This document shows, piece by piece, positions 27,401-64,000 of a stretch of 64,000 bases of DNA (positions are counted from its first letter, which is position 1; each line of letters begins with the position of its first letter). Position numbers and translations under genes: made by a program. Under the pieces are notes generated by a model, which ran no database searches, was not told the DNA's origin, and was given only the letters and a program-made list of their open reading frames with translations. The stretch comes from Odontesthes bonariensis (taxonomy: Eukaryota > Chordata > Actinopteri > Atheriniformes > Atherinopsidae), in the NCBI RefSeq assembly GCF_027942865.1, contig NC_134522.1, positions 6,988,849 through 7,052,848 on the forward strand, given 5' to 3'.

Positions 27401-30400
27401 TATTATAAAAGCGTTCCAACACAAAAAAATAAAAACATGCAATATAACAAATTATCTGAGTGTCCTAGCCTGCTCCTTCAGGAACAGTGGCAGCATTTTT
27501 TGTAGTTTGTGTGTTTTGCCTTTTAGTGATATTTTAGACTGAAACTACTACGATGAGAAGACAATTCAACTTGGCTGTAAATGCAGGAGTTTTTTAAAAA
27601 TGTATTTTGAAATACATGCTTTTACGTTGAAACAAGTAAAACAGGAAGTAGCGTCGGTTAGCTCCGTGAGCTTCACACAGAGACCGAGGAGCACCTGTAG
27701 CGTGATGTTACCTGCTAGTTTATTTTTATTTTATTACTCCATGCTTCGTGGTGTTTGCTGTAACTGTGTGAATGTGATGCAGAGGAGAAGTGTAAGTTAA
27801 AGAATCCTAGTTCTGACCGTGAAGATTGCCCCTGGGGAATGACTCTGCCGTTGGTTGAGAAGCAGCTAAAGTGGCCAGTATTACTTTGATTATTTATTGG
27901 TACCAGCGACAATGCTAAGAGTGCTATTTCTTTAATGATTACAACAACTAATGTTGTCTTTTACTTTGTTTACTTGACCATTTAGTTATACGGTGTTGAT
28001 GTGGAGTTAATAAACATCTGTGAAAAGAACCGGAGTCTCGCATTGAATCAATGGGCGGCATATTGGCAGAGTTTACAGATGACTTTGGTTCTGTCGACTC
28101 CGCCGTCTGGAAGTGGATCATTTTGGGTCACCACGATTCGGCCACTCATTCGGCTTTCGGCCGAAAGCCGAATGTGGTTTTTTTTTTGCGTTTTCGGCCG
28201 AATATTTTCGGTTGCCGAATATTCGGTGCGCCTCTAGTGTTAACCAAATTACATCTGTCTTTTTTAGAATTACTATGTCACCTGTTTACCTGTGGTCTGT
28301 TTAGCTCACCTGTGTTTTTGGGATTGAAAATGTGATTGTTTATGCCATACTGTGATTTGCAAATGCACTTATTGAAGCTCACAAGTTATTACATATTGGT
28401 CACATAGCTATAAACATTTTGATGATTGGCAGCATGTCTTTCATCACATAATTGTTTAGCCGGACAATTTAAAATGTCACAGCTATTCAATGTAGCACTT
28501 AACAGAGCAGTTAAATGTAATTACAGCATTTCATTGTAATTGGTATTGTGCACATATTTGTTTGTGTTGATTTGTTTAACTTTTCTTTTGTCTGATTTTT
28601 ACTAGCTGTAAAGAGGAGAAATATGAGGAACTTTACCATTTTTTCAATACTAAATAACAAAATAAGAGAAAGGAGGACTAGATTGCTGAAGTTTTAGTAG
28701 TTCAATGAACCTTTTTAAAGTACATCTCAAGTGTCCAATAATATGTAGTCAACAACTGTGATCAATATCTGGGAAAGATCTTTACAGCTTAACTAAGTTA
28801 TTGAAGAGAAAGTGTTACATTTGAAATGAACTCAAACAAGAACATTCTATTACAGAAGTTTTTATTAGAAAGTGAATATAAAGGTGAAATATTATATTTA
28901 CACTATTAACATATTATATACAACTAAAAAATTAGATATTAAGACATAACAGTATGGTCATGTAACATTGAGCAAGACTGATGTAGAAAAGTAATATAAA
29001 AAATAAGTTTTCATAAAGTTCACACATTGTGTTTCAACAATGATTCATGTTCGTGTTCACTGGATCTGATCAAGCGTAATTTTTGATCTTTGCGTCAATC
29101 ACTGGAAATGTACTTTGAGTGGCTTGATAAATATCAAAGATACATAAACCAAAGCAGCCAGGCCACATTGAGCAAGACTAATTTAGAAAAATAAGTGTTA
29201 AACACATGTTGTTACAGAGTTGCCATCTTTGTATTCCAATGTGATGCAGATTTTAGTGTTCCCTGGGTGTAGGATAGTTAATAACTTATCCTTGTGTTTT
29301 CCTCTGAAGTGTTCTTTGAAAGCCTTGCTAAAAGTTCAAAGATACAGAAATGACATCATGGTCAGAAAAGTAACAGTCTGTAACATTGACTTGAGGAGAC
29401 TGGTCTTGGTTGACATACACATGATCAAGCTGACTTCCATAGTCAGTGGTTGGTCCTTGGACTAGTTGTTTGAAGCCTAATTGTTGCATTGCTTTCAGGA
29501 GGTCATGGTTGGGAGCTTGTAGAAGATCTACATTGAAATCACCAAGGATGACAGTTGGTACATTTGTTTGGAGAGATGATAAAAGGGATTGCAACTTTTT
29601 GATTGTTGTAGTAATGGGATTGGATGGAGATCTGTAAATGGTGATTATGAAGATCTGTTTAGAAAAGGCCTTCACTGAAACTGCACTGTATTCCAGGCCT
29701 GTGAGTTTGAATGTCATCTCCTCAGGTGAAATCTCCTGTTTTGCAACAGTCATCACACCACCTCCACGTCCTATTTCAACTGGTCTGTCTGATCTGATGA
29801 CTTAAGAGTTTGGTAGAATTGGTGTTATTTCTTGATAGGGATGCAGGAATGTTTCCACAAAACAGAACACATCTGTTTGTTGAAGGCGGCTGTCCATTTT
29901 TAAGTCCTGCTCATGCATTAAGTAGGATCTGATATTGAGCATCTTGATTTGCAATGCCTGTTTGTCACTTGGGGGAATGGAAATAGGGAAGCACACCACA
30001 TTTTCTTCCTGTCTAAGGCGATCCATTTCGCAGATGACTGTTGGGTTTGTGCGAATGGCTTTTTCATCAAATCCTAGAAGGAAAAGGTTGTTCATGCGTT
30101 TGACGCGACTCAGGGCAACGTATGCCTGGCCTGGCATGAAGGGACGTTTTCCTTGCATGGACACAACAATCTGTTCCATTGTCTTGCCCTGGACCTTGTG
30201 TATGGTGCATCCCCAAGCCAAAGAGAGTAGAAATTGGCTCCTTTTTGCTTCAACAGATCTTCTACCCCAGCCAGCATAAAATTGAACATGTTGTCTTTTG
30301 ATGGGTACTGTGTCTGGAAATGATTGCTTGTATTGGCTGTTAGAGATGGCCTGTTTACCAACACGGCCACTGTCAAATTTAAGCATGATTGTGTGAACAG

Positions 30401-33400
30401 TTGTTCCAGTGCAGTCAATCCCAACAACTGTGCCACAGACTCCATTAGCCAGACCATCTGAGACATGTTAACAGTCACCATTACTCTAGCACCCACTGCT
30501 ACAGACACTGTTTCCCTGAGGCCACCAGTGTCACATGCTTTGGGGGAAATTTCAACATCAATCAGGCCTGTCTGGATGTCCTTTTTGTGATCAATGGCTC
30601 TGATTTCAAAAACTGGGCTGGAGAGTTTCTTCAGATATTCTTTGTTGTGCTCATCAACTTCTTTGTTTGTCTTGAACACATGAAGGGCATTTGCTGGGTA
30701 ACCAGCAGAGTTTTTGGTGATGACTCTTGTTTTGAGAGTGGTGATATCCTCTTCTGTGCAGGAATCTGTCCTGGCCCTCATCAAAAGCTGGGCAAAATCT
30801 TGATCATCTTGTTGTCGCATGCTTTCTGTGAGTTCCATCAACTTGAAGTTCTCCTCCCACAGTGATCCATGTAAACGCGCATAGTGGTCTGATGGGAGGT
30901 CGAAGACATGGTTTTGGCCAAATGTTTCATCATACCACACAGACAGAACCGGCGCGTGTTTAATAAGTTAAACTTACACGTTGTCTCCTTTGTCTGCGGC
31001 GCGCTGCTCTCCTTTCTTCCTTCATGAAATGAAAAAGTATCGTCTCCTGACTCTCTCTGTGAGCTCTTCCAGCCTCGATATTAGACGCCTGATGTTATTG
31101 TCCATGATTAATATCACCATCATGCAGACCATGAACACGGTGGCCTCCTGGCTCTCCATATTAGCTTCTTTGTGGTGTTTTTTCTTCTCTCGGGTTTTGT
31201 TTTGTTCCGTTTTGTTGTTGAATGTGGCGCTAAACGGCTAACGGCTAACACGTCACTGACGCGGACGGCTGCGCGCGGCGCATCAGTCCCGACTCATGTG
31301 CGAATGCACACTGAAACAGTTCCGCTGGGGAAGGACAGTTATCAGAACGAAATTCGAGTAGGACAGTTCTGATAACTACTCTGTCCGAAAGCGTATATCT
31401 CTACGGACCAATCAGAGCTTGCATGTGGCAGTGTTTAAATGGGTCCTGAAGGAAACTCTTGCAAAATAACAGTTCCGTGTTCAGAAAACTTCCGTACCGT
31501 GTGTATTCTGCGTGGAAATGCGTGTACCGAACCGTGACCCCCGTGCCGTGACGGTTCGGTACGAATACATATACCGTGCCAGCCCTAGCCCCAACCATAG
31601 ACACTTCATCTATAATTAGGAGCTTCAGTTTTCCCAAGCGAGAGCGGAGTGTATTCAGTTTTTCACTGCCTGCAGCTTGGTACTGCTTTTGCCTTTTTGG
31701 TCCACAGGTAAATCCAAGGGCGGAATGAAGTGTCATGCCCTCAACGTAAATGCTGCTGTTCCGGTGAATGCAGTTAGCAGTACAGGAAGTTCATCAGGAT
31801 GAAAATGTCCAGAGAGTGGTTTCAGAAGCTTCAATGTTTCATAGTGTATGAGCTTGATGATGTGACTTTTCCCCACTCCTCCAGGACCACTGAGAAAGAC
31901 TTTGTACTGTGGCATGGGTTGGTTATTTTTCAGGGCAAAGATTGCATCTTTGCACCATCTTCTGTGAAACATAACAGCTTCCATTTGCTTGTTGTTTGGT
32001 GACCGCATCATGGCTCTATACTCTTCAGGGCTCATTAGCACCTTACTCAGCTCTGCTGTGAAACGAGCGTGAAGTTCCGACTGATGATTTGAAGTTGAAT
32101 CCTGGGTTAGGTCAACATTGATTAGTTGATCTTCCTGTGGGAGGTCCCTTTCTTGAACAATGCCTTCATCTTGTTGTTCTGCCCGCTGGAATTCCACACT
32201 TGGTACTAACTGATCCCAGGCATCTTCTGGAGGACCCATCCTTTGGAAGTCCTCATATGCTTTGTCCACTTGATCAGCATTCACACTGAACATTGCTTCA
32301 TTTGTATGAACAATGTTTTTGACATGTTCATAGTGTTGTTGGTAGGAGGGGAAGTTGCCTTGTAAGTCAGCCACCTCATCTCGCCAGGGGTAGTACAGCA
32401 TGAGCAGGTTCATGTACTTGTCTTCCCCTTCCTTTTTTTCTTTATGAAACCTGATAATGCAGTGATGTTGTCGCTTTTTCATGTATCCCAGGCCATTACG
32501 CAGAGTGATAACTGTAGGGAGTCTGTTGACAGCTTCAGAGTCATTGCCATTATCAGCATTGTTACTGCCATGTAACACATCAGGGACATGGTCTGTGGCT
32601 TCTTCTGGAGAGTTTTGTCTTCCAGTTGTGTATGTTGCTGAGAATTCGGCGAGGGACATGTCTTTCAATTCGTCTGGTCGAGCAGCATACCTGCAGGTGA
32701 AAAGTAAATACATGATATCATGTACATGAACATATCAGCAACTCCCTGGACTGTCAAGTTGTCTGCCCATGCACCATGTCTTAGTGCATCAATATATGTA
32801 CCAAATGTTCTTTTCTGCTGCTGAATTCGAGTCTTGAGTTCAATTGATTGAGGAGGACTGTTGCTGAGTTGCAGAAAGCTACTGTAGTGTTGTTTGAAAG
32901 GTGATATCTCAAGGTAGTCAATGAGCCTTTGACGTATGTCAGGTCCGCTGAAGTACTGCATTCCAACTGAAGAAAGGGATGCAGAGACTGCATGAAAGAA
33001 GCAGTTACCATACCCGGGAACTTGTTTTATCTGCAAATTTTGTCTTTTTGCCAAATGTGCTAGAATGGCGTAATTATCTGCAGTTGGCAGGGGTGACATG
33101 GGAGCAGGTGATGTTACCTTATACCCTTCCATATTCTCAGTCCCGTCCTTGGCTATTGTCTGCCACAAATCTGGGTCCTGGTTTTCCCACATGTTTTCCC
33201 AATCTGAGCAGATATCAATGTCCTTATAGAGAGGGTTGTTTTGTTTCAACCAGACGAGTGCCTCCATCACCCTTTTTGGTCTAACATATTCATGCATGTA
33301 ATGTCCTTTGTAACAGAGTTTTCTCTTTAGCTTCAGAGCCACAACTTCTGCTGTATTGGGAAGCCTTGGCAGCAAAGAAACAAACGGTTGCAACTTGGAT

Positions 33401-36400
33401 GGGACATTTTCTGCACTACCGTGGATGGCCTGTCCTCCTTTTGGAAGTCCCACAAGCTTCATAAAAGGGATTCTTTGACTGATCAGTCGCTGCTCCAAAG
33501 GCCTTAGGTCAGCTAATGCTGGTGGTATTTCATCAAGTGCCAAACCATTCAGCCATGATTGGATAGGGAGCTTTCCACGTTTCATTGTGTGATGACAAGT
33601 TTTTACACACCCATGATTTGCCATGGGTTAGCATTGTGCTGCCTGATGCGATCATATCCTGAATTACTTCGTTATTGTTGGGATATTTGTCAGCTTTCAA
33701 TTCCACAACACAGCGGTAATGCAGGCGGTGGCAACAAGCATAAATAGGGCCTTCTGCTATCTTAGACTTGAAAACAGATGCACATTCATCAACACTCAAG
33801 TCTTTCTTGTGTGCTCTACGATCTTGGGATCTCTTTTTCTCTTTCAGCCGACGAGTGTCAGCATCTTCAAAGGTTTCCTGCCTCAGATGACGCATTCGCT
33901 TTCGCTCTCTTACCTTGGCACGCCGATTGTCAGCAGCCTCTGTCGGCTCCTGTTGCCTCTGTCGACGTTTTTGAGCTCTTGCTGCAGCACGCCGATTGTC
34001 TGCAGCCTCTGTCGACTCCTGTTGCCTTTGTCGACGTTTTTGAGCTCTTGCTAAAGCACGTCGATTGTCTGCAGCCTCTGTCGACTCCTGTTGCCTCTGT
34101 CGACGTTTTTGAGCTCTTGCTGCAGCACGTCGATTGTCTGCAGCCTCTGTCGACTCCTGTTGCCTCTGTCTACGTTTTTGAGCTCTTGCTGCAGCACGCC
34201 GATTGTCTGCAGCCTCTGTCGACTCCTGTTGCCTCAGCCGACGCATTCGAGCTCTTGCCGCAGCGCGGTGATTGTCTGCAGCCTCTGTCGACTCAGTTTG
34301 CCTCTGTTGATGTTTTTGAGCTCTGTCTGCAGCACGGCGTTTGTCTGCAGCTTCTGTCGACTCCTGTTGCCTCAGCCGACGCATTCGAGCTCTTGCCGCA
34401 GCACGGCGTTTGTCAGCAACCTCTGTGGACTCATTCTGCGTCCGTTGACCCATTTGTGCTGTTGTTGAATCAAAGAGCACCTCAGCACCCTTGCTGCTAT
34501 AGTCCTGCTTTTTTCTGTAATGCGTTGTTGTCTCTGGTGTCGTCATTATTACATACTTATAGATTTGATCCGTGGCATGATTGTCAACTTAATCTGTTTG
34601 AATAAAATCAAAGAAAAGTAATCAGTAACAGTAACTGATCCACATGTACATTTTTAAACATTAGGTTGAAATGCATTTAGAGTCAGCCTACCTTAAGATG
34701 TTACATGTACAATAAAAAAAAAAAAAAAAAAAAACAGCCTATAGCCTAGTAATTAGCAATTAGCAAACAATAGTACGGAATTGCATATCTAACCCCCTTA
34801 AAGTGATACTCCGGAGTAGATTCAACCTGGGGTCATTTGAACTGTGATATCTAGCCAAGTAGCCCACCCGAAGTTTTTTCGATATTGGCTGAACATCAGC
34901 TGAGTTACTGAGTTATCCCGAATAGCTTCGTACAAGGGTTAATGGATCCTGGTCCGCATCTCCAAAATTACCACACTAAAATCACATGTCATGACACCAA
35001 ACTTCTACAGTAGTACAAATATGGTCTGTACTCACAAAGTGATGCATTTGGAAGTTTGAAAATAGTCCAGGAGTTTATTATTATCAACACAAGCCTGATA
35101 GCTTCTCTGCAGCTAAAGCTGCGTCGACGTCACTTCAGGGAGCTGGGAGCTTCAAAGTAAGATGAGGGTTGATCTACTACTGTAGACAAAGTATATGCTA
35201 TATTCTACATGTTTTTTATGAATTTTTATGTTGTAGAGTTGTGAAGTTATTTTATCAATGGAGAAACTGAGCAGCCTTGCTTTGTTGTCTACAGTAGTAG
35301 ATCCACCCTCATCTTATTTTGAAGCTCCCAGCTCTCTGAAGTGACGTCGACCCAGCTTTAGCTGCAGAGAAGCAATTAGGCTTGTGTTGACAGTAATAAA
35401 CTCCTGGACTATTTTCAAACTTCCAAATGCATCACTTTGTGAGTACAGACCATATTTGTACTACTGTAGAAGTTTGGTGTCATGGCATGTGATTTTAGTG
35501 TGGTAATTTTGGAGATGCGGACCAGGATCCATTAACCCTTGTACGAAGCTATTCGGGATAACTCAGTAACTCAGCTGATGTTCAGCAAATATCGAAAAAA
35601 CTGCGGGTGGGCTACTTGGCTGGATATCACGGTTCAAATGACCCCAGGTTGTATCTACTCCGAACTATCACTTTAATGGATGCAACAATAGGATTATTTC
35701 ACACCACTTTAACACATGTCCACGCACTTGCATCTGAAAATATTCTGAAAATGTTACGTAGTGGTACGTAGACATTTAAAAGAAATGACTGAAATGTCCT
35801 TTTAAGAAAGAGTTATCCTTTCCAAGTTTTACACTGTTTTATAGGAGGAAAGGGGTGTTGATGTTGTCCATTGTTTTCAAGGCCATAGCGTAACAGCTCA
35901 ACAATATAGAAGGCATAGGCCTATATGTTGTACATGAAAAGGTGTAGTCTGCAGCAAAATGTTCTGTTTGCCCTGATGATCCCACATCTTCACAGAATTC
36001 CCTAAAAATTGTTCATCATTTTATTGCATTATGTTGCTGTGCTCTGTTGAGGCCTTCAGAAGACATATTTGTAATCAACATAGGCTCTTTGTGCTCTGTT
36101 CTTATTGTTAATCGTAGAAACACTTTCATAAAAGTTAGTCAGACTTATTATAGAAGAAGTTCCATCATAGTCTGAACAGAAGACCTCTGAAATGTGAGAA
36201 ATCATTCTCAATGCCATTTTCATAGCACTGAAATACCTTGTGGGAATGTACACATTTTCACAATTTTATCCTGAAAGCGCCACAATCTCTTCATTTTCAA
36301 GATTTACATTTACAAGTGTTATGCACCTGTTTGTTTGTCATTTTACACTATGTAAAGACAATGTCACCATTGGCATTAATGTCTTTGGAAACAAGTCTTG

Positions 36401-50600: not shown

Positions 50601-52276
50601 GTCAGGAAAGATGAGAAAGCGATTTTCTTTCAAGGTTTACGATTTATTTTCCAGACTGAAAGAAGCCGAGAGGCCGTTCTGTGAGCGTCTCCACAGAGTC
50701 AGAGACCTGATGGGCAGGAGTAAGGTCAGCATAGAGGAGGTCATCTCTGAGCTCGGTCAGTATCCGTGTGAATGAGGCTTTTCATCGTCCCTCCATCCCT
50801 TTCAGTCCCTTCTTCTTTTAAATTTGACATGAAAACAGATTTTGAAAGACAGATCCATGTCAGCGACATGTTACTTGGTTGCTTACAAAGGTGCCTTAAA
50901 GGTATTCATCTTTACATTCGCGGCCTCTTCTTAGAAATACATTTATTCGCCCGAACCAGTCGAGGTCAAATCTGTTTAAACGGGACAAAACCGGATGCAT
51001 TTAGTCAAAAAATGAAGCACAAGGCTAGCAGTATCTGCTATAAATATAAAAAAAATGACCTTAAGTGTCAAAATTGAGCATTATATAATGAGAAAATAAA
51101 ATTAAAGGTTCAACTTACATCTTTTCTTTGAGGGTTAGGGTGATTAAAGTGTCCTCACTCATTCGTCAGAGCCCTCCAGATTTTGAATTCACCAACTGGT
51201 TTTTGGAAAAATGTTCCTAAGCCCACGCAGTGATTTCCACTTTTAAACCCAATCTTGTTACAGTCTGTGGCCACTTACCTGTGAGATATTCATGGAGAAT
51301 TCAAAATCAGCATTTTATTTTCAAATCGTTTAACATTTGTGTCTATGCATGAAATCTGCACGCTATCTTTTAATTGATCTAGACTGTTGCTTGTTTTTAA
51401 ATTCATTTAAGGTATTTTATTTGTTTCTCTTTATATTCTTTTATGTATTTTTAATGCTTCTGCCACTCCCTGCTGCAATGCTTTTATTTTATGTAAAGCA
51501 CTTTGAATTGTTTTGTACATGAAATGTGCTATACAAATAAGTTTGATTTGATTTGAAATCATTTTAAATTAAACATGCGTGCTAATCTCCTTATGTGCAT
51601 TATATGGAGGCTTTAAGCTTTTTTTTTTTTTGCCAGGGCTGCATGCTATCATCATCCGATATTGATCAGGATGTGACTTGTGTTAAATATGTTAAATAAA
51701 TGGTGCTAATCTCATTAAAATCTCATTAAAATAAGGTGGATTAATGAGGGCTGCATTCCACTTCTGCACACATGGTAGAACTTCCTCTAAATGGAACGCA
51801 GCCCTGATTCATCCTGCTTTGAGTCACACTGGACGTATTCCAGTCGTACGGGAGAAGTTAGTTTTGCTTTTCTCTTTTCTTTTTTTCTCCCAGGTAACGG
51901 CATCGCAGCGCTCCACTCAGTCCCCACCGCCATCTTCTGCGTCCTCCACTGCCTGCAGCCCCAGGAATGCCTCCCAGAGAAGTACGGAGGCCTGGAGAGG
52001 ACAATAGCATACAGCTTGGCCCTGGGTGGTGACACGGACACCATAGCCTGCATGGCCGGGGCCATCGCAGGGGCCCACTACGGCATCGAGGCCGTTCCTC
52101 AGTCCTGGATGAGGTGTTGCGAGGGCGCGGAGGACGCCAACGTGAACGCAGAGCGCCTCCACAAGTTGTACCACCAGTCGTCACAGGGGGGCAGGAGTGA
52201 GACGGCGAGGCAGCGCCGCGAGGAAAAATCTGAAAAGGAGTCGAACGGTACGGAGAAGAAAACCGGAGCCGAGTGA
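47478..52276 (+). CDS. adprs: adprs (ARH3), ADP-ribosylserine hydrolase, complete, six exons
   Basis: Removes mono-ADP-ribose from serine and cleaves PAR and O-acetyl-ADP-ribose in nucleus and mitochondria. CDS 1,164 nt, 387 residues (human 363). Exons: 47478-47664, 49902-49998, 50080-50287, 50382-50569, 50655-50755, 51894-52276, all phase-consistent. Mg ligand motifs are present: GDCVGGEFEG (D31; E38 matches human E41), EYSDDTAMA (S68-D69-D70), LGGDTDTIA (D307, D309, T310). Also QFNGRGSFGNGGAMRAAP and SLGYNGAVLQAMAVH, both family signatures. The start aligns with the human Ala-rich N terminus; an upstream ATG at 47474 is out of frame. The C terminus has an extra charged tail of about 30 residues. 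Divergent from zmym4 and convergent with the SLC7 gene. Confidence 0.97.
47892..48694. mobile_element. hAT-like element with 8-bp TSD
   Basis: Ends CAGAGGTGGGGACTTGGACT and ACTTTCTCCCACCTCTG flanked by ATAAATAC (47884-47891, 48695-48702). Subterminal GACTTGGACT repeats at both ends. It lies inside a LINE fragment. Confidence 0.9.
48700..48970 (-). pseudogene. LINE reverse-transcriptase ORF C-terminal fragment
   Basis: Minus frame encodes FKRTVIYRGMQEWNQLPKLI and SLFKKTLKKYL, the usual C-terminal end of fish LINE ORF2. Confidence 0.75.
49902..49998 (+). CDS. adprs: adprs exon 2
   Basis: 97 nt encoding ILEYSDDTAMARCVVQSLL and FDEQDMAR; holds the Ser-Asp-Asp metal ligands. Phases 1 to 2. Intron 1 before it is 2.2 kb of repeats. 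Confidence 0.96.
50080..50287 (+). CDS. adprs: adprs exon 3
   Basis: 208 nt encoding FAKEYGASPGRGYGSGV, the QFNGRGSFGNGGAMR loop and NLADVKR; GTGAGT donor. Intron 2 is only 81 nt. Confidence 0.96.
50382..50569 (+). CDS. adprs: adprs exon 4
   Basis: 188 nt encoding FACLGAMLTHSCSLGYNGAV and the helix ending DEATRSDAR. The donor follows AGAGT so that the junction codon is Val; phases 0 to 2. Confidence 0.95.
50655..50755 (+). CDS. adprs: adprs exon 5
   Basis: 101 nt encoding LKEAERPFCERLHRVRDLMG and VSIEEVISELG, matching human REEVVSELG. The donor is the weak GTCAGT. Confidence 0.95.
51337..51560. repeat. interspersed repeat in adprs intron 5
   Basis: Inverse of the 55300/59808 family: CACTCCCTGCTGCAATGC, TTTTATGTAAAGCACTTTG, GAAATGTGCTATACAAATAA. 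Confidence 0.75.
51894..52276 (+). CDS. adprs: adprs exon 6, catalytic C-terminal end
   Basis: 383 nt starting NGIAALHSVPTAIFC, with LALGGDTDTIACMAGAIAGA and the stop at 52274-52276. The last about 30 residues are Arg/Glu/Lys-rich and absent from mammalian ARH3 as I recall it. Confidence 0.96.
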
Positions 52277-53671: not shown

Positions 53672-53902
53672 TCACAGGTTTTTCTCTGCCGGGGCGACCT
53701 CTAAGAACAGCTGCAGGAACGTAGTCAACTTGGTCAGCAGTCCCGGGCAGAGCTTGTAGTGGATGAACGGGACGTAGACTACAGCTCCGCTCAAGATGAA
53801 TAAAGTCACATAGAGGTATTCAATCTGAGGATCATCTATGATGGGCGCCAGCACAAGGAAGACCGCCACAATGAGGACCAGTATGGGGAGGATAATGGGA
53901 AC
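53672..53902 (-). CDS. SLC7 shared exon 6 with stop codon
   Basis: 77 codons including the stop. [20 protein letters not shown] (TM11), [20 protein letters not shown] (TM12), then the cytosolic end [17 protein letters not shown]. Confidence 0.95.
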   Translation of the reverse strand, partial: VPIILPILVLIVAVFLVLAPIIDDPQIEYLYVTLFILSGAVVYVPFIHYKLCPGLLTKLTTFLQLFLEVAPAEKNL

Positions 53903-56900
53903 CTGTGGACACAGGAAACACAAGCATGACAACAGTCTCCTGTGTATGGAAGCCCGTTTCCGCCACTTAATAAAAATACATTTAGAAATACTATCTCATA
54001 ATTATGAGATACTAAATTTAGTATCTCATAATTTCAACTTAGTATCTCATAATTATGAGATAGTATCTCATAATTTCAACTTAGTATCTCATAATTTTGA
54101 CTTAGTATCTGATCATTTTGACTTAGTATCTCATAATTATGAGATAGTATCTCATAATTTCAACTTAGTATCTCATAATTTTGACTTAGTATCTCATAAT
54201 TATGAGATAGTATCTCATAATTTTGACTTAGTATCTCATAATTATGAGATAGTATCTCATAATTTTGACTTAGTATCTGATCATTTTGACTTAGTATCTC
54301 ATAATTATGAGATAGTATCTCATAATTAACTTAGTATCTCATAATTATAAGATAGTATCTCATAATTTTGACTTAGTATCTCATAATTATGAGATAGTAT
54401 CTCATAATTTCAACTTAGTATCTCATAATTTTGACTTAGTATCTCATAATTATGAGATAGTATCTCATAATTTCAACTTAGTATCTCATAATTTTGACTT
54501 AGTATCTCATAATTATAAGATAGTATCTCATAATTTCAACTTAGTATCTCATTATTTTGACTTAGTATCTCATAATTATGAGATAGTATCTCATAATTTT
54601 GACTTAGTATCTCATAATTATAAGATAGTATCTCATAATTTCAACTTAGTATCTCATAATTTTGACTTAGTATCTCATAATTATGAGATAGTAGCCTATT
54701 TCTAAATGTATTTTTATTAAGTGGCGGAAACAGGCTTCCATACTTGTGGGAGAGAAGAAATTGGGAAAATAGTACGTAACACTGACGCTGTACGGCCTGG
54801 GGAGCTCCGGCTTCTTGATTTTGAGGTAGAGGAGCCCAGACAGAGTGATGGCGTAGAAAAACCAGGCTGTGAAACTGATAACAGCAATGAAGAGGAATGT
54901 CAGTTAAAAGCTAAAAGACGGTGTTTTATGTAAGAAAAAGCCGTCACCTGAAGAAGTTGACGATACTCTGAAAGTCTCCTGGGATCAGCACCACCAAAGA
55001 GACGGCTGTGGTGAAGATCAGCGCCGGAGACGGAGTCAGCCGGTGTACGTGAGCCATGGACAGGATATCTGGCTGCAGAACCAACACGAGTCCGGGTGAA
55101 ACTCTGCCACGGCTTTATTCTAAACAGCTGTTCGTGTTTTGATGTGAAGGAGAAAACGTTACCATGTGGCCTTCCCTGGCAGCGACAAAGCACACTCGCC
55201 CCCCGCTGAAGAACGTCCCGTTTAAGGAACCAAAAGCAGACAAGGCCGCAGCCACTGACATGATCCACCCCCAGCTGCCGAACACCTTGTTTCTGCAGGA
55301 AAAGTTTCAATATCAAATCCAATCCAATCCAATCCAATCTATTTGTATAGCACATTTCATGTACAAAACAATTCAAACAAAACAATTTATATCAACCGTT
55401 CTGTTATTAGCTATATTTTTAAATGCCTCCTCTTAGAGGAAAGTTTATCCATGTTTGTTAGCTTTTGTTAGTTTACTCAAATTACCTGTTACAGTTATAC
55501 CAATCTTACTATTAGCTAAATTTAATTTTGCTCTGTTATAGTTATACCAATCTGACTGTTAGCTAAAATTAATGTTTTTATATACCTGTATTTCTGTGTT
55601 GTATTTTTTATGTCTTTATGTAAAGCACATTGAGTTGCCTGTGGTATGAAATGCGCTATATAAATAAAGATTGATTGATTGATTGAAAGTGCTTTACATA
55701 AAATAAAAGCATTGCAGCAGGGAGTGGAAGAAGCATCAAAAATACATGAATATAAAGAGAAACAAATAAAATAATTTAAACAAATTTAAAAACAAGCAAC
55801 AGTCCAGATAAATTAAAAGATATCGTGCAGATTTCATGCATAGACACATGAGAAAAGAAATGTTTTTAACCTGGATTTAAAAACGTCTACATTCAATACA
55901 GTGTTTTACTGTTATCTCTTCCAGACAGAGAAGGTCAGAGGCATCAGAGCATTGCTTTTAGACACATTTTCAGTCATTTATTCACATCAGGAAAATCCAA
56001 AAAGGTTACTGACCCAGGAAGCCAACTTTGGACTGATCCAAACATCAAAATAAGTCAGTGGCTCAGAAACGTATCTAGTGTTGCTTTAAACCATAAATAC
56101 TCTTAATTCTGATTTCGGCAGACTCTTAAAAACTGAAGAATGGGATTATATGTCTGGAAAACCCTTCACAAAACATCCAAATCAGTGAAGAACAGAACGA
56201 TAAATGATCATATTTCACCCCCGTTCGACTGCACAATATGGGTTTAATGTGTGATAATTCAGGATCAGGGTACTTTTGGGAAAATGTTACACAGTATTTG
56301 GCTGAAATTGTTGGTTCTACTCTTCACTGTGATCCGGATTTATGGCTTTTGAACCGTAATGCTGCAGGAGCTTTGTCCAAAGTTAACAAATAAATTCTAA
56401 TAACTGGATGCATGACGGCTGAGAGGCTGATCGCAACGAACCGGAAGGATGCAGGTCAACTGAAAGATGGACTGTGGCTGCTGAAGGGGCTGCGTCCCAT
56501 CTCTCTTCCTTCATAAAGAGGACCAACAGTTGTGGAAAACTATAAAAACGAGACAGCTTGGATATCTGGCTCCAGACATGCATATTTAAAGCTATACATG
56601 TAGATTTTTAAATATCTGTCGAGCTCATCTGCCATCTCACTCAACGAGTTTTGTTTCTTTACCATTTGATTTATTCAGTTTACTGTGTGTTTCTTTTTCT
56701 CCACCGTTTAAAAGTATATAACAGGTGCTGAATATTTGTTTTTTTGGAGGCTAAGCGCTGTTTGGCCAAAGAATGGAAAACAGAAGTGTCCTGTGTTTTG
56801 GCGCAGTGGTTGAAAGGAATGTGCTTTTATTTTGCTTTGGAGAGAATTAGTTATACCACAAAAGGCAAGCTAGACAAGTTTTGGAAGATTTGGTACATAT

Positions 56901-57010
56901 TTTGCGACTTTCTTGAAAATAATAATATTAAAGTAGAAGGCTGGGATACTGTTGGAATTTGAAATGAGCCCCCCCCCCCCCACCCTTTAACTTTATTTTA
57001 TTCTATTCTA

Positions 57011-57044
<34 letters not shown>

Positions 57045-60000
57045 GGTTTGTTTTTATTTAAATTTATTTAATTTTTATGTATTTTCCTTTTCCCTTTCAA
57101 AGAACCCACAACTTTATCAGTTCTTTACCGATTGCTTTTGTTTGTGTGTATTGCATTGAGGCTGAGACATTAATCAGCTTTACATAATACGTAATGTGTC
57201 TTTGAACATACATTTGGGTTGTTTTTGGACCACACAACAAGGACTTTCTGTCTTCAAGAGACTTTATTCCTTTATATTAGGTGGACACTTACAGAGCTCA
57301 TGCTTTCAGGGGAGACTTTCTATGTTATTTCAGTTTGTGCCTTGGGTTTGGGGTTGTTGTGTGTTTGTATAAAAGAACAAAACCTTAATAAAGAAATGTT
57401 TTTAAAAAAAGTATATAAAGGGTGTGTTCTTACCCCCAGGTGACAGCTACAGCATTGGAGGACATGAGCTCTTTAGGCGTCATTACGGTCAAATAGCTCA
57501 CGTTCACCAGCAGATACAAGCCGGTCACCAGAAAGATGGCAATCAGCAGCGCTCTGGGAAGATTCACCTGTGAAAGGAAGAGCAGTGAGTAACTGTTTTT
57601 TCTGCTTTCTACCCAAATGTTTGGTCAAATATGACTTTAATGCAGTTTCTGAAACAAAAACAGTCACCTGCTAAACAGCTACTACCTTCTTATCCATATT
57701 TATTTTGGATAAATGAGATAAATCTTAGACAGCAGTTTGGAGGACTTTTATTTGAGCAACTGAAGTGGATGTTAACAGTTAAATCTTCTTAAACTCTCCA
57801 TGAAATCAGTGTTTTTATACAACCTGTCTTCTGTACATCACCTGCACACGTGTGCTGATACAAAAAAAAGCTTTGCAGGCGTTATAAACTGTATTTTAAA
57901 GTTGTTTTAAAGTGTTGAAGAGTGAGCCTGCATCCAGCTGTGGATATCTGTCCTCTAGCTTGTAAATATGAGGAGACTAAATGCTTTCACAGGGACTTAA
58001 AAACAAACTTCTGTTGATCGATTGTCTTCCTCTGCTTCGGCACGTTTCATTAAGTTTCATGTTTTTCTTTATTTTATTCACGGTTTTTACATTATTAGCC
58101 GATTTTACAGCCCAGTCTCACCGCAAATGCGAATAAGTCAGAAAAATAATTACATAGAGTAACACTGTGTCCCCACATATTGTCAAAAAGTCATGAAAAT
58201 AAAGCATCAAAGTCCCCATTTGGGTTAATTTGCTGCTTCTGTTTAACATTTTACGGACTTCTTGGTTGAAGTTCTGTATTGCGATTTAACTGGTTAGGTC
58301 AACTATTAAGAATTATAACGTTAATATAAAGAAAACATTGCGGTAACATATCTGTTGCATCTTTCTTTGTTTTAATTTAATTGGAATCATTTAGATTTAA
58401 GTTTGGTTTCATTGAGACACTGAGGCTTTCTTTCCCTGATTTTGCCGTAAAAACATGCTTTCTATCTACATTTTCACATGTCAGGATGACTAATCTCAAT
58501 GATAGGATAACAACATTGTTAGGAAACACATCTCATCACAGTCAGGATAACAATTACAATCATAAAAAACAAGATAATTTCTTCTTATCAAACCCTGAGT
58601 GCCCTCGGATAACTTCTGACACTTTGCAATGCCGACACTTTGATAAGTATGTTTGTTTAAGTTCTGTTTTAAAAAGCATTTTTGACAGTACAGACACTAT
58701 CTCTGTCTTTATCCTTCTTATCCTTCCTTTATATCTTTATCACCTCACCTGGAAGAAAGTAAAGTTAAGACCCTCACAGTCTCACCTCTGGTCTCTTAAG
58801 CTCCTCAGTTACATGATTTAAGTTGTACCAGCCGGCATAAGACCAGAGTCCTTGAAAGAAACCCATTCCTAAAGCACTCACAGAGTAGTGAGTCCCTTTA
58901 AAAGAGTTCTCAACATTCAAGTTTTCCACAATAATAGCGCTGCTCTGTGAGATCTCCACCATCCCACCGATTACAATGACTGTCAGCGCTATAACTTTGG
59001 CCACCAAGAAGATCACTTGGACTCTGACGGCAAGGCGGACGTTCAAGATGTTGACTGTAGCGACGACCACAATCATGACAGCGGCGGTGCATTTCACAGC
59101 CAGCTCAGGAGGCTGACAGCCGGGGTAAAAGGGTGCCATGGCGTACTCTGCGATGCTTATTGCCATTGCAGCGATGCTGAAAGGTTTCACCACCAGGATA
59201 AAAGTGACCGCTGCAAAGAAGGCAGGGCACGGGCCATAGATCCTCAGTATGTAGATGAAATCCCCACCAGATTCAGGGATGACGGTCCCCAGCTCGGTGT
59301 AGGACAGCGCAGCAAACATTGCCACAACTCCCGAGAGAGCCCAGATCACCAGGCTCGCTCCGGGGCTTCCCACGTACGCCATAACAAACTGAGGGGACAT
59401 GAATATGCCGGACCCGATCATGGTTCCAGAAACCAGTGCCACACCTCCAACCAATCCAATTTCCCTCCTTATTTTCAGAGCTTCGGGTTCTTTGTCCGCC
59501 ATAATGATCCCCTTTTACAGAGCAGAATCCAAAAAGATCAGTAAGTATTCCAGACACTCGACTTGAGCTGTGCATATCAGAGATGGCAGGTTAAACAGTA
59601 ACCGGACTTTAAAAAAAACCAAGCCGTACCTGTAAATGTTTTAACATCCAGCTGTGGATTATAAACTCTCATTACGTAAGCCTTTATCTAGTTATGCATC
59701 TGACAGCACTGGCACACCAACCTCAGCCTTTCCACGAAGAAAAGAGTGAACACAAAGTTTCACAGTTGATGGTACCTACAGGTTCACACTCTTTTTAATG
59801 TGGTCTTCAAATCAAAATCAAATCAAATTTATTTATATAGCACATTTCATGTACAAAACAATTCAAAGTGCTTTACATAAAATAAAAGCATCGCAGCAGG
59901 GAGTGGAAGAAGCATTAAAAATACATAACAGAATATAAAGAGAAACAAATTAAATCATTTAAATGAATTTAAAAACAAGCAACAGTCTAGATAAGTTAAA

Positions 60001-63000
60001 AGATATTTCATGCATAGACACATGAGAACAGAAATGTCTTTAACCTACATTTGGTGAAAGTCTTATAAAGTATATTAGTGCATTTTGACAATCTTACTTC
60101 TGGACGTTTCAGCTCCTCGGTTAAATAATTCAAAGTGTTCCAGCCATCATAGGACCACAGGCCCTGATAGAAAGCAATGCCAATGGAGCTGACACCGACG
60201 TTCGTTCCCTCAAAGGAGTCCTCAAAGTTCTCCGTGTTGCCTCGGAAGAACACCACAACTCCTCCCACGATGATGAGCGTCAGTGCCAGCAGCTTGATTG
60301 CCATGGAAACCACCTGGATGCCAGTGGCCAGGCGGACGCTCAGACAGTTGACGATGGCCAGCGTCAAGATTCCTCCCGCAGCCACACACTTTAAAACCAG
60401 CTGAGGGGGGGCGCAGCCGCTGTAGAAGGGGGCCACGACATATTCGGCGAAGCTCAGGGCGATTCCCGTGGCGCTGGCGGGCCTCATGACAACGACGAAG
60501 CTGAACACAAACATGAAGGCCACGACTTTCCCCACAGTCCGACGCATGTAGATGTACTCCCCGCCGGACTCTGGTATGACGGTGCCCAGCTCAGCATAGC
60601 AGAGCCCCCCCAGCATGGCTATCAGCCCACAGCAGGCCCATATAATGAGGCTGGCCCCAGGGCTGCCGATGGCAAGCAGGACGTACTGAGGGGAGATGAA
60701 GATCCCAGATCCCATCATGGTCCCAGCAATGAAGGACACGGCTCCCATTAGACCCACTTCCCTCTTCAGACTGAGTCTCGGCTCCATTGTTAGATTGTTA
60801 GATCCTGCTGCTTCATGAGAGGAGCTCACACTGCACAGCACAGAGCTCAGAATAACTCTGAGCAACTAGGTAATAAACTCAACAACAGGTGAAATCACCC
60901 TTAAACAGACAATAAATCAAGGAGTGGCACGGCTGTTTGAAACAGCCTCTAATCAAGCTTTCTTTTAGGAGAATCAGAGCAGCTTGTTCTGAGTCAAGCT
61001 GAATGATAGTGACACGTTTTAAAACCCACTCTTTGAAATATTAACAGAGCAAGGACAGACTTATTCTGCATGGCCTGTTGGCCTGACCCACTTTTTACAG
61101 CTCATCTAAACTAAAGGTTGACTGCTATCGACAGACTGCAGCGTGTACCTGCACGCTTTCATCAAGTGACGTACAAGCCTTAAACCATCCTTCATTTATC
61201 CATATACTGCCAGGAAAACAGCAAATCACATTTATCAAATATAAATTGAACTAATGATTATAAATGTAAATAGAGTATTTAAGAAAAAAAGAAGTTTGTA
61301 GACTAATAAACTTTAAAGTGAACCTCTGCTCTGAGCTCCTTTCTCCTCCAACTCAGCCTGAACCCTCTCAGATGAGCTTTCTGTCCTCTCTTTAAGGAGT
61401 CTTCAGGAATAGTTCTCCAGGCTTCTTGAAGGACATCCCAAAGCTCTTCTTTGGATGTGGGCTGCCTTTTGTTGCGTTCTCTGCCAACATGATCCCACAC
61501 TGCTTCAGTAATGTTGAGCTCCGGGCTCTGGGGAGGATTCATCCCTCCATCAGACCTGCTGCCACTGATTTTCAGCCCACTTCTTGTGTCCTTTGGCACA
61601 GCTCAGTCTTTTCTCCCCGTTTCCCTTCCTTAAGAACGGCTTCCTGACAGCCACCCTTCCATGGAGCCCATTTCTAATGAGGCTTGGGCCAACAGCAGAT
61701 GGATCAGCTGAAGGTCCAGATGCATCTCTCAGCTCCTGTGTCAGGTCTTTGCTGGATTTTTTCCTCTTTCTTAAGGACATCACTTTCAGATCCTGTTCAT
61801 CTGCTGTAGATAGTTCTTTAGGCCTGACACTTCTTCTTTTGTCCTCCACTTGTCCAGTTTCCTCAAATGTTTTAAGGACACACTGCACACCATGCTGAGA
61901 TATGCCAAGTTTTCAGCTAACAGCTCTTTGGGAATCATTTTGTTGCTGCAGAAATCCTGTTTTCTGTCTGTCACACTGTGTTATCTTTGCTGTTTTGCAT
62001 AGAAGAAACTAAAGAAATGGGAACAAATGATGTGTCTCTGTGACAGGCTGCTAGTAACAAAGTGCCTAAAGATCTAATTTAAAATGGATTCTTTGCTAAC
62101 ACTGGTTCATCCCTTGAGTTAGGAACCTTTTTTAAGCCTGAATGATTCATAGGTCTGAGTTAAGTGGCTTAACAAACACACTTATTCCTCTGAAAAATGG
62201 TCAGGTTAAAGGACTGGACTGAAAATTACTAAAAAAGCAGCAAATGTCTAAACATAACTTTGAACTATTGTTTAAGATCAGTTAAAAATTAAAGTAAAAT
62301 AAATAGAATATAAAGAAATGAGGGTGGCTCAATACTTTTGTACAGTGCCGTATGATGCATACAGAAACATGATTAGTAGAACATCGATTGTTGATGGATT
62401 TACTGTCATTTTCTCTTTTTTATGATGCGGGTCAGGTCATCACTGAACAGCTAAATCATTCTTTATTTTAGTGCAATAACAAGTAAACCCTCTTACTCAC
62501 CTCTGGACGTTTCAGCTCCTCAGTAACAGAATTCAGATTGTTCCAGCCATCATAGGACCACAGTCCCTGGTAGAAAGCGATACCAATTGGATTGATGCCC
62601 ACATTTGTGTTCTCAAAGGAGTCTTCAAAGCTTGCCGTGTGCCCTCTGATCAGCATCACCACCCCTCCTATTATGATGACCGCCAGGGCCGCAACTTTGG
62701 CCACCATGAAAAACACTTGCACCGACATCGAAAAGCGAACATTCATGCAGTTCACAATAGCCAGAGCTATGATGGCAGCTGCAGCCACGCATTTCACCAG
62801 CACCACCGGAGGCGCGCACTCCGCGTAAAAAGGTGCGACGACATACTGGGCAAAGCTCAGCGAGATGCCAGCAACTCCAGCGGGTCTCACGAACAGCACA
62901 GAGCTGAAGACTAACATGAAGGCGACGACTGGACCGGAAGTTTTGAGGATGTAGACGTACTCGCCCCCAGATTCTTTTATGCAGGTGCCCAGCTCGGCGT

Positions 63001-63202
63001 AGCAGAAAGACACCATTATCACCAGTAAACCACAGCTGGCCCACACCACCAAGCTGGCTCCAGGGCTGCCGATGGAGTAAAGCACCGTCTGCGGGGACAT
63101 AAAGATCCCAGATCCAATCATCGTCCCCGCGATGAGGGACACGGCTCCCATCAGCCCCACATCACGTTTCAGGCTGAGCTTCTGCGCCTTTTCGTCCAGC
63201 AT
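53672..63202 (-). CDS. slc7a9-like: SLC7 (b(0,+)AT-like) heteromeric amino-acid transporter locus with three alternative N-terminal exons
   Basis: Twelve-TM APC-superfamily exchanger, light chain of a heavy-chain/light-chain transporter at the plasma membrane. Five shared exons (57567 to 53672) encode the C-terminal 235 residues with [19 protein letters not shown] and LQLFLEVAP, most like SLC7A9. Three upstream exons (C, B, A; 62501-63202, 60098-60787, 58786-59502) each encode an N-terminal half with the TM1 GSGIF motif, the extracellular Cys that bonds the heavy chain, and the TM6 end TEELKRPE, each followed by an intact phase-0 donor. Full proteins would be 469, 465 or 474 residues (human b(0,+)AT 487). 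The proximal A gene is certain; use of B and C with the same tail is inferred. Confidence 0.85.
53950..54733. mobile_element. TA-flanked MITE with inverted ends, carrying a palindromic minisatellite
   Basis: Ends are inverted copies of TGGAAGCCYGTTTCCGCCAC continuing to about 45 bp, and both are flanked by TA (mariner-type). Between them, about 54000-54690, lies a tandem array of about 21-bp units built on TATCTCATAATTATGAGATA, a perfect 20-bp palindrome, alternating with TCAACTTAG and TTGACTTAG variants. Inserted in the SLC7 intron between shared exons 5 and 6. Confidence 0.85.
54000..54690. repeat. palindromic ~21-bp minisatellite
   Basis: Over 30 units of GTATCTCATAATT followed by ATGAGATA, TCAACTTA or TTGACTTA. 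It leaves a spurious open frame at 53838-54329. Confidence 0.92.
54787..54874 (-). CDS. SLC7 shared exon 5
   Basis: 88 nt encoding [20 protein letters not shown] (TM10) and PELPRPYS. The donor is the weak GTCAGT, and a MITE filled with a palindromic minisatellite starts about 45 nt further downstream in the intron. Confidence 0.9.
54948..55072 (-). CDS. SLC7 shared exon 4
   Basis: 125 nt encoding [20 protein letters not shown] (TM9) and [12 protein letters not shown]. Phases 0 to 2 with a GTGACG donor. Confidence 0.94.
55163..55292 (-). CDS. SLC7 shared exon 3
   Basis: 130 nt encoding [20 protein letters not shown] (TM8) and [17 protein letters not shown]. Phases 2 to 0. Confidence 0.95.
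55300..55940. repeat. fish interspersed repeat (…TATAGCACATTTCATGTAC… type), two pieces
   Basis: The tail motif at 55330-55380 and the block 55615-55900 (AAAGTGCTTTACATAAAA, GCAGGGAGTGGAAGAAGC) match copies at 59808-60050 and, inverted, at 51337-51560. A GATT microsatellite (55670-55686) separates the parts. Lies in the SLC7 intron 2. Confidence 0.7.
56230..57410 (+). mobile_element. L1-type LINE 3' fragment
   Basis: Reading through with frame breaks, 56270-56340 encodes [19 protein letters not shown] and DPDLWLLN, and 56744-56962 encodes [19 protein letters not shown], the C-terminal end of L1 ORF2 in fish. An AT-rich 3' UTR follows to a run of A near 57405. In the SLC7 intron between shared exons 2 and 3. 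Confidence 0.7.
57434..57567 (-). CDS. SLC7 shared exon 2
   Basis: 134 nt encoding [20 protein letters not shown] (TM7) and [20 protein letters not shown], matching [21 protein letters not shown] in b(0,+)AT. Phase 0 in, so all three variable exons can join. Confidence 0.95.
58786..59502 (-). CDS. SLC7 variable exon A (proximal N-terminal half)
   Basis: 239 codons from ATG 59502 to [12 protein letters not shown], donor GTGAGA, phase 0. TM1 has [12 protein letters not shown] (residues 26-37); the heavy-chain disulfide Cys is C129 in [11 protein letters not shown]6 reads [12 protein letters not shown], with Ala223 where b(0,+)AT has Asp233; xCT (SLC7A11) has the similar YAGW. It lies 1.2 kb from the first shared exon and is the default 5' half. 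One large exon replaces the several exons of mammalian SLC7A9, as I recall. Confidence 0.93.
59656..59668 (-). promoter_or_regulatory. TATA-like box upstream of SLC7 exon A
   Basis: On the minus strand GAGTTTATAATCC lies about 155 nt upstream of the exon A start codon. A related GAGTTTATTACC (60868-60878) sits about 80 nt upstream of exon B. These could be separate promoters, one per variable exon; no other support. Confidence 0.3.
59808..60050. repeat. interspersed repeat between SLC7 exons A and B
   Basis: Same family as 55300-55940: TTTATATAGCACATTTCATG then AAAGTGCTTTACATAAAATA. It lies just downstream of the exon B donor. Confidence 0.75.
60098..60787 (-). CDS. SLC7 variable exon B (middle N-terminal half)
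   Basis: 230 codons from ATG 60787 ([15 protein letters not shown]) to TEELKRPE, donor GTAAGA, phase 0, no stops. [12 protein letters not shown] in TM1, C125 in FYSGCAPP, and Asp214 in [12 protein letters not shown], as in b(0,+)AT. The frame stays open upstream to 60865, but the 60787 Met aligns with exon C and is preferred. No C-terminal exons lie between B and A, so B must use the shared exons or be non-productive. Confidence 0.88.
61303..62350 (-). pseudogene. Tc1-like transposon remnant between SLC7 exons B and C
   Basis: Minus-strand frames encode an N-terminal helix-turn-helix part (61550-61974) and the C-terminal [20 protein letters not shown] (61303-61599), split by frameshifts. The right end at 62325-62345 (CAATACTTTTGTACAGTG) is a familiar Tc1 terminus. 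No intact transposase. Confidence 0.8.
62501..63202 (-). CDS. SLC7 variable exon C (distal N-terminal half)
   Basis: 234 codons from ATG 63202 ([16 protein letters not shown]) to TEELKRPE, with a consensus GTGAGT donor in phase 0. The open frame extends upstream only from a GTG, so 63202 is the likely start. [12 protein letters not shown] in TM1, C129 in FYAECAPP, Asp218 in [12 protein letters not shown]. It most resembles exon B. A degenerate Tc1 copy, but no C-terminal exon, lies between C and B. Confidence 0.88.
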
Positions 63203-63239: not shown

Positions 63240-64000
63240 GGGAAAACACTGTAATTGTGTGGCCAAAGTCACTATTGCATAAACACATGAAGTTAATAAT
63301 TATGTGGGCGGTTCATTTTACACACATGCCTGTTTTGCTTAACAGCTTATGTGTTTCTTAAATAAGATAAGTGAAGTCAGTGGTGGCCACATGTGTTTTT
63401 TTTTTTGTTTTTTTTGAAGCTGTGCGTCTTTCTCTTGGTTCAGGCAGTGATGTATTACAGCTGAGTGCCAGCCAATACACAGAATGCTTCAAACTAGCTT
63501 TAAATTCCTCCTTTGGCTTAAAATTCTTGAAATAGTTCAGCAGAAAAGTCAAGTATGGAAGCCCACTGCTGCCAATATCATAAAAAAGTTCCTGCAAGTC
63601 ACTCTCACATGACCATCTCATTATAGTAAATATCTAAAGTAAGTTGGCCGCATTTTTAAAATGTAAATCTGATTAGTTATATATAAAAATAATGATAAAG
63701 AGATAGCATTAGAAAACAACCATTAGACTTACGCAGGCAAAAGAATTTGAACATTCTGACCAAATGTAAACAATGACAAACAAGCATGGCGGACACCCTT
63801 GATGGAGTTGGTTAGCAGACGTAATTAAAGATCCTCATAACTGTGTCAACAACTTTAGAATTAATACACACATGCTGACATGTGTAGCATCCATATTTAC
63901 TTTTTCTCCCATTAAACTGTCATGAATAGGCTTCCATACAGCACTCTCTTAATCAATCTGATTCCATTGTTTCCCGCTATGGTTCTATATCGAGCCATGT
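63240..64000. other. 5' flank of SLC7 exon C, nothing recognised
   Basis: No further N-terminal exon or other gene is visible to the window edge; the region is AT-rich. More variable exons could lie beyond. Confidence 0.4.

Follow-up and report, generated by a model that had tools for sequence, protein, structure and literature searches.

Three alternative N-terminal halves before one constant tail: a b(0,+)AT-like SLC7 gene of Odontesthes bonariensis and other teleosts

The stretch of Odontesthes bonariensis DNA considered here (contig NC_134522.1; the window, 64 kb in full) carries on its minus strand an amino-acid transporter gene of the SLC7 family. The gene spans 63202-53672 and is made of three variable first exons in tandem, A, B and C, each encoding an N-terminal (N) half of the protein, followed by five constant exons that encode a single C-terminal (C) half, or tail. 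Half A contains an AA_permease_2 domain, and for half A as for the complete isoform C the best match among solved structures is human SLC7A9, the light chain b(0,+)AT (PDB 6yup, 6li9). The locus has the layout of a variable-first-exon cluster such as UGT1 and the clustered protocadherins, and it is real, old and under selection. It is highly probable that we are dealing with one b(0,+)AT-like SLC7 light-chain gene organized in this manner. The parts of the gene are as follows, with lengths in nucleotides (nt), TM for transmembrane helix, and D233 for Asp233 of human b(0,+)AT.

62501..63202, minus strand: variable first exon A, 702 nt, 234 codons, the TM1-TM6 half, Asp at the D233 position
60098..60787, minus strand: variable first exon B, 690 nt, 230 codons, Asp at the D233 position
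58786..59502, minus strand: variable first exon C, 717 nt, 239 codons, Ala at the D233 position
57434..57567, minus strand: constant exon 2, acceptor CTTCCTTTCACAG, donor GTAAGA
55163..55292, minus strand: constant exon 3
54948..55072, minus strand: constant exon 4
54787..54874, minus strand: constant exon 5, donor GTCAGT, the exon end picked by homology
53672..53902, minus strand: constant exon 6, carrying the stop codon
53210..53215, minus strand: first AATAAA 3' of the stop codon, a candidate shared polyadenylation signal

Each of the first exons has an ATG start, an open frame, and a phase-0 end at the residues TEELKRPE, with the donors GTGAGT (A), GTAAGA (B) and GTGAGA (C), and the constant exons are entered in phase 0, which is compatible with all three. 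In-frame stops lie 69 (A), 81 (B) and 15 (C) nt 5' of the ATGs. Joined to the tail, the exons predict proteins of 469 (A), 465 (B) and 474 (C) residues. Identity between the halves is 67% for A and B, 50% for A and C, and 52% for B and C, and the nucleotide homology of A and B stops at the exon plus the first bases of the donor; a 605-base nucleotide match between B and C is an overlap of the excised flanks, not homology. In all of this the original prediction proves accurate: its exon coordinates and lengths are exact to the base, the uninterrupted halves with intact phase-0 donors are present in A, B and C, the product lengths come out the same on splicing, and its estimate that the exons differ at a third to a half of their residues agrees with the measured identities.

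The same prediction had it that there is only one set of C-terminal exons, with none between the copies. A tblastn search of the window with the tail returned the tail's own exons and four weak matches (expectation (E) values 4.7-7.3), and no C-terminal remnant between the copies; the 64 kb, including these intervals, is free of N. When the organism's own genome (945 Mb) was searched with half A, a search that scores the best candidates only, 29 matches were scored, and the full-length ones were A (100%), B (67%) and C (51%) alone, the other 26 being shorter pieces of 24-51% identity. The 19.9 kb that adjoin the gene on its upstream side contain neither an N half nor a tail at E 0.001, and Rfam at gathering scores gave no match in the window. 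The closest named protein among the best 120 of 1625 matches comes from Odontesthes bonariensis and is 96% identical to isoform A.

Do other fish share the arrangement? Most of the relatives listed in protein searches are named b(0,+)-type amino acid transporter 1, and several species have isoforms X1, X2 and X3, in some cases up to X6. The searches covered the best 120 of 1625, 1726 and 1500 matches, together 256 proteins, nine of which were examined as concatenated or extended models. Proteins were split at the junction, and the N half was typed by its best BLASTP match to the A, B and C of the window. For the comparison of tails, 58 species were picked by eye as listed more than once, and others may have been missed; Sparus aurata, with two A-type entries, and the concatenated models were omitted, and Stigmatopora argus was included with a single entry. 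At least two N-half types are present in 47 of the 58 species, and in 39 of those 47 a C half with no difference at all, usually over an aligned stretch of 235 residues, stands behind N halves of different types, so that the comparison with other percomorphs comes out in favor of the original prediction. Three types occur in 10 species, and in six of them all three are followed by one difference-free C half. Additional B-type halves joined to an identical C half are seen in two Sebastes species, in Epinephelus lanceolatus, and in Betta, where one A-type and three B-type halves precede one identical C half. The concatenated models give the order: that of Collichthys (P0004) runs through A, B, part of C, and the tail minus its first 45 residues, in the same order as the window, while models from Siganus (P0002) and Knipowitschia (P0003) read A-B-tail, one from Scophthalmus (P0005) reads B-C-tail, and those of Bagarius and Danionella have two N halves, partly incomplete, and then one tail.

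The two halves of the protein tell different histories. Trees were built from 81 of the 256 proteins, hand-chosen, together with the window's halves, the N-half tree having 84 rows and the C-half tree using C halves of at least 225 residues. In the N-half tree there are two changes of type, which is the minimum; C forms one branch (support 99) and B one branch (support 93), and A shows two changes, with Diretmus beside B. The C-half tree requires 42 changes of type, and all 24 of the 24 species with several proteins lie each on one side of a branch (Oncorhynchus_k, a label that stands for two species, is not among the 24). N halves that sort by exon type and C halves that sort by species are what one would expect if variable exons share a constant tail.

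Purifying selection, as judged from these comparisons, is acting on all three exons. The ratio of nonsynonymous to synonymous substitution (dN/dS, Nei-Gojobori) between the window's exons is 0.19, 0.19 and 0.17, well away from 1. The method is near saturation for A/C and B/C, where dS is about 2, so that conservation across species weighs more heavily than dN/dS: in seven species with all three types, including that of the window, the tail is kept at 91% mean identity, exon A at 84%, exon B at 76% and exon C at 78%. Given selection on A, B and C, decay is very unlikely, as the original prediction had argued.

Several observations pull the other way. Eight of the 47 species have no difference-free C half between types; the differences amount to 15-28 residues in Umbra, Siganus, Salarias, Centropristis, Sphaeramia and Myripristis, to 1 in Oryzias melastigma and to 4 in Hippocampus comes, and the species with the larger numbers seem to have separate full-length copies. 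Among the ten species with three types, the C halves are not all alike in four: Pempheris and Gasterosteus (1 residue each), Dicentrarchus (8) and Hippocampus zosterae (37). In the Lucifuga model a single B half is followed by two tails. Moreover, the isoforms known from other species come from predicted gene models, and therefore they show a shared genomic tail rather than a spliced message. Umbra pygmaea deserves separate mention: its proteins P0093, P0107 and P0252 have consecutive numbers and C halves that differ from each other at 18-26 residues, and are apparently complete tandem copies, unlike those of Esox, where the tail is identical.

How might the gene work? By alignment to human b(0,+)AT, the N half holds TM1-TM6, so that both broken helices of the substrate site, and the heavy-chain cysteine, travel with the variable exon. 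Each first exon would be started by a promoter of its own, and its donor would bypass any first exons further downstream to join constant exon 2 at its acceptor; the C-terminal half would then be supplied by the five constant exons, and one gene would give three transporters. Separate promoters are likely, to judge from the DNA upstream of the starts, where two HNF1-like sites stand before A and C, each with 10 of 12 bases of the consensus:

63292..63304, minus strand: HNF1-like site with 10/12 consensus bases, 90-102 bp 5' of the ATG of A
59590..59602, minus strand: HNF1-like site with 10/12 consensus bases, 88-100 bp 5' of the ATG of C

There are six such 10/12 sites in the 64 kb, and at that density the chance that at least two of three starts have one within 150 bp is about 0.0005, for a motif that was chosen post hoc. 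A point against is that no HNF1-like site precedes B, where the best match within 150 bp is 7/12, with a 9/12 match at -258.

Residues were counted over 259 N halves, namely the window's three and the 256 database proteins, concatenated models included. The cysteine of the heavy-chain disulfide is present in 92 of 92 A, 99 of 100 B and 67 of 67 C halves, as the original prediction had noted for the window's exons, and hence all three forms should pair with a heavy chain. Human Asp233, in TM6, aligns with residue 218 of A. This position is acidic (D/E) in 91/92 A halves and in 93/100 B halves; in the C halves it never is (0/67), the residues there being Ala (52), Ser (12) or Gly (3). At the position of Asn236, Asn is present in 89/92 A and 96/100 B halves, and Tyr in 58/67 C halves. 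New here is this pattern at the D233 position, a residue that human b(0,+)AT needs for cationic substrates: it is acidic in nearly all A and B halves and in none of the 67 C halves. Two proteins, Diretmus P0109 (typed A) and Sphaeramia P0163 (typed B), have a C-like TM6 end, for which conversion from exon to exon and stitched gene models are possible explanations. An AlphaFold2 model of C isoform P0199, made from a 35-row alignment, had a mean predicted local distance difference test score (pLDDT) of 41 and was not used.

The mutants of the human protein give these counts a meaning. In the part of PMC9110406 available, D233G, D233I and D233S have no ornithine transport, while D233S retains Tyr transport and cystine transport is preserved in D233S and largely in D233G. 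If the residue pattern is read in this light, both neutral and cationic amino acids are predicted substrates of A and B, whereas C would transport neutral ones and perhaps cystine, but no cationic ones. The choice of first exon would then probably switch substrate selectivity. Telling against so simple a switch are exceptions to the rule, the acidic residue being missing from 7 of the 100 B halves and from 1 of the 92 A halves, and the absence of Ala, the commonest residue in C, from the D233 single mutants described in that part of the source.

Could these exons be something other than alternatives in use? Suppose that A alone is in use, and that B and C are the N-terminal leftovers of dead tandem duplicates. 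The absence of C-terminal exons between the copies fits this, as does the lack of an HNF1-like site before B. The frames of B and C are open, however, and their donors intact; dN/dS is low, their mean identity in the seven species is 76% and 78%, against 84% for A, the heavy-chain cysteine is conserved, and B or C halves are joined to the shared tail in predicted proteins of many species. We find this explanation very improbable. Scarcely credible is the notion that there are three complete tandem genes, whose C halves were lost here by assembly error and are held identical elsewhere by gene conversion. In its favor, the three Umbra proteins differ in their C halves, an indication that complete copies exist in some fish, and the Lucifuga model has two tails. 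But the intervals between the copies contain neither N nor tail; 39 of 47 species with difference-free C halves beside N halves that are about 50-76% identical would need near-perfect conversion that halts at the same intron; and models from several species place two or three N halves before one tail.

A different matter is whether the halves, though all in use, are mutually exclusive exons reached from a leader exon, under a single promoter upstream of A. AG sites with some pyrimidine do lie 5' of all the ATGs, at 25 and 29 nt for A (0.68), at 46, 73 and 81 nt for B, and at 68 nt for C (0.63), and by this crude pyrimidine measure they are at least as strong as the genuine acceptors of exons 3 and 4 (0.58); some predicted isoforms, such as P0104, have N-terminal extensions as well. 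The acceptor of exon 2 is nevertheless stronger, with a pyrimidine fraction of 0.84, each first exon has its own ATG with an in-frame stop upstream, and the HNF1-like sites are directly before A and C. On balance we think a leader exon unlikely, and prefer a cluster in which each variable exon would be a true first exon.

It seems clear that the array is not a recent one. A tail identical between C and an A or B half is found in Esox, Coregonus and Salvelinus, and one identical between B and C in Gadus; the layout is therefore older than the divergence of percomorphs from pike and salmonids, and the cluster is common to pike, salmonids, cod and percomorphs. The branch of the N-half tree that parts C from A/B has elopomorph and otophysan proteins on either side, a placement that hints at an older origin and is no proof of a shared tail in those groups. 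What steps led to such a gene? In another SLC7 gene of the same genome, L006, the N half matches in pieces (residues 3-144, 147-187 and 187-234) and the tail begins in a further exon, and L011 and L012 likewise match in pieces. Thus the N half that is spread over three exons in L006 is here one exon, in three versions. The intron at the junction looks old, and the inner introns are missing from the present gene. Loss of the inner introns would have yielded a single-exon N half, which might then be duplicated as a cassette. A broader proposal, to which we give an even chance, is that promoter choice among the N-terminal halves, by exchanging half of the membrane fold, turns the exchanger from cationic plus neutral substrates (A, B) to neutral substrates or cystine only (C), and that teleosts have kept and expanded the array since before pike, salmonids, cod and percomorphs split, perhaps since the teleost ancestor.

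The surroundings of the exons contain a variety of other sequences. The last intron has an AT-rich tandem array at 54016-54700, with units of about 21 nt (TTATGAGATACTAAG and variants) and inverted copies inside. A fragment of a Tc1/mariner-type transposase (Pfam HTH_Tnp_Tc3_2) lies between A and B at 61550-61912 on the minus strand, and pieces of one repeat element, 81-92% identical, lie at 55326-55878, in the intron that separates constant exon 2 from exon 3, and at 59816-60052, between B and C. Tail to tail with the transporter gene is the C-terminal exon of an ADPRS/ARH3 (ADP-ribosylglycohydrolase) gene at 51791-52276 on the plus strand. The upstream neighbor of the transporter gene, on the same strand, is at L009:1989-2636 (minus) and by eye resembles UTP25/DIEXF. 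Farther off, a MYM-type zinc finger exon at 18819-19298 (minus) is ZMYM4-like, the ZMYM4 model itself being below the cut-off. A run of long open reading frames at 29328-34588 (minus) appears by eye to be Helitron-like with a PIF1-type helicase, and two of its pieces have no Pfam match. Near-identical open reading frames at 10545-10865 (plus), which has a BED zinc finger, and at L009:1010-1333 (plus) are probably a recent transposon.

The original prediction stated that no SLC7 gene built in this way had been described. As to the layout this stands, in that no description of it was found in searches of open-licence papers for alternative first exons in SLC7 genes or in other transporters; it needs qualification in that the raw annotation already exists as NCBI isoform models, and that a zebrafish paper lists a probable orthologue. 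In the available part of that paper (2021, PMC8478756), zmp:0000001267 on zebrafish chromosome 17 is a table entry without function or expression data, slc7a9 is a separate, non-duplicated gene, and the words "exon" and "isoform" are absent from the main text. Because P0240, a Sphaeramia protein belonging to the present family, bears its name, zmp:0000001267 is probably the orthologue. To the extent of those searches, the residue switch, the two-tree test, the layout and the array's age appear to be unpublished.

Few vertebrate genes contain tandem arrays of similar coding first exons. Those before one constant exon set include vertebrate UGT1, UGT2A, GCNT2 and the clustered protocadherins (PMC1885805, as far as available); the arrays named in the same part of that paper encode enzymes, adhesion proteins or immune receptors, and the words "transporter" and "solute" are absent from its main text. 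A transporter of the LeuT fold that is cut in mid-fold amounts to a natural domain-swap experiment, carried out in many fish species, in which a constant TM7-12 half must function with TM1-6 halves only about 50% identical. The layout makes it testable which half governs selectivity, and it offers a single-locus explanation of how fish could retune amino-acid uptake via promoter choice.

Human SLC7A9 is the closest solved relative of the present gene, and the heavy-chain cysteine is conserved between them. Within the SLC7 family, SLC7A2 (CAT2) is a gene in which alternative exons give isoforms of differing transport properties, but there two short, mutually exclusive internal exons are involved and there is no tandem first-exon array. 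In layout the gene resembles the UGT1 cluster, where every one of several similar coding first exons in tandem is spliced to a common constant set, and where the choice of substrate is set by the variable half. The difference is that the cluster described here encodes a 12-helix membrane transporter, cut in the middle of its fold between TM6 and TM7.

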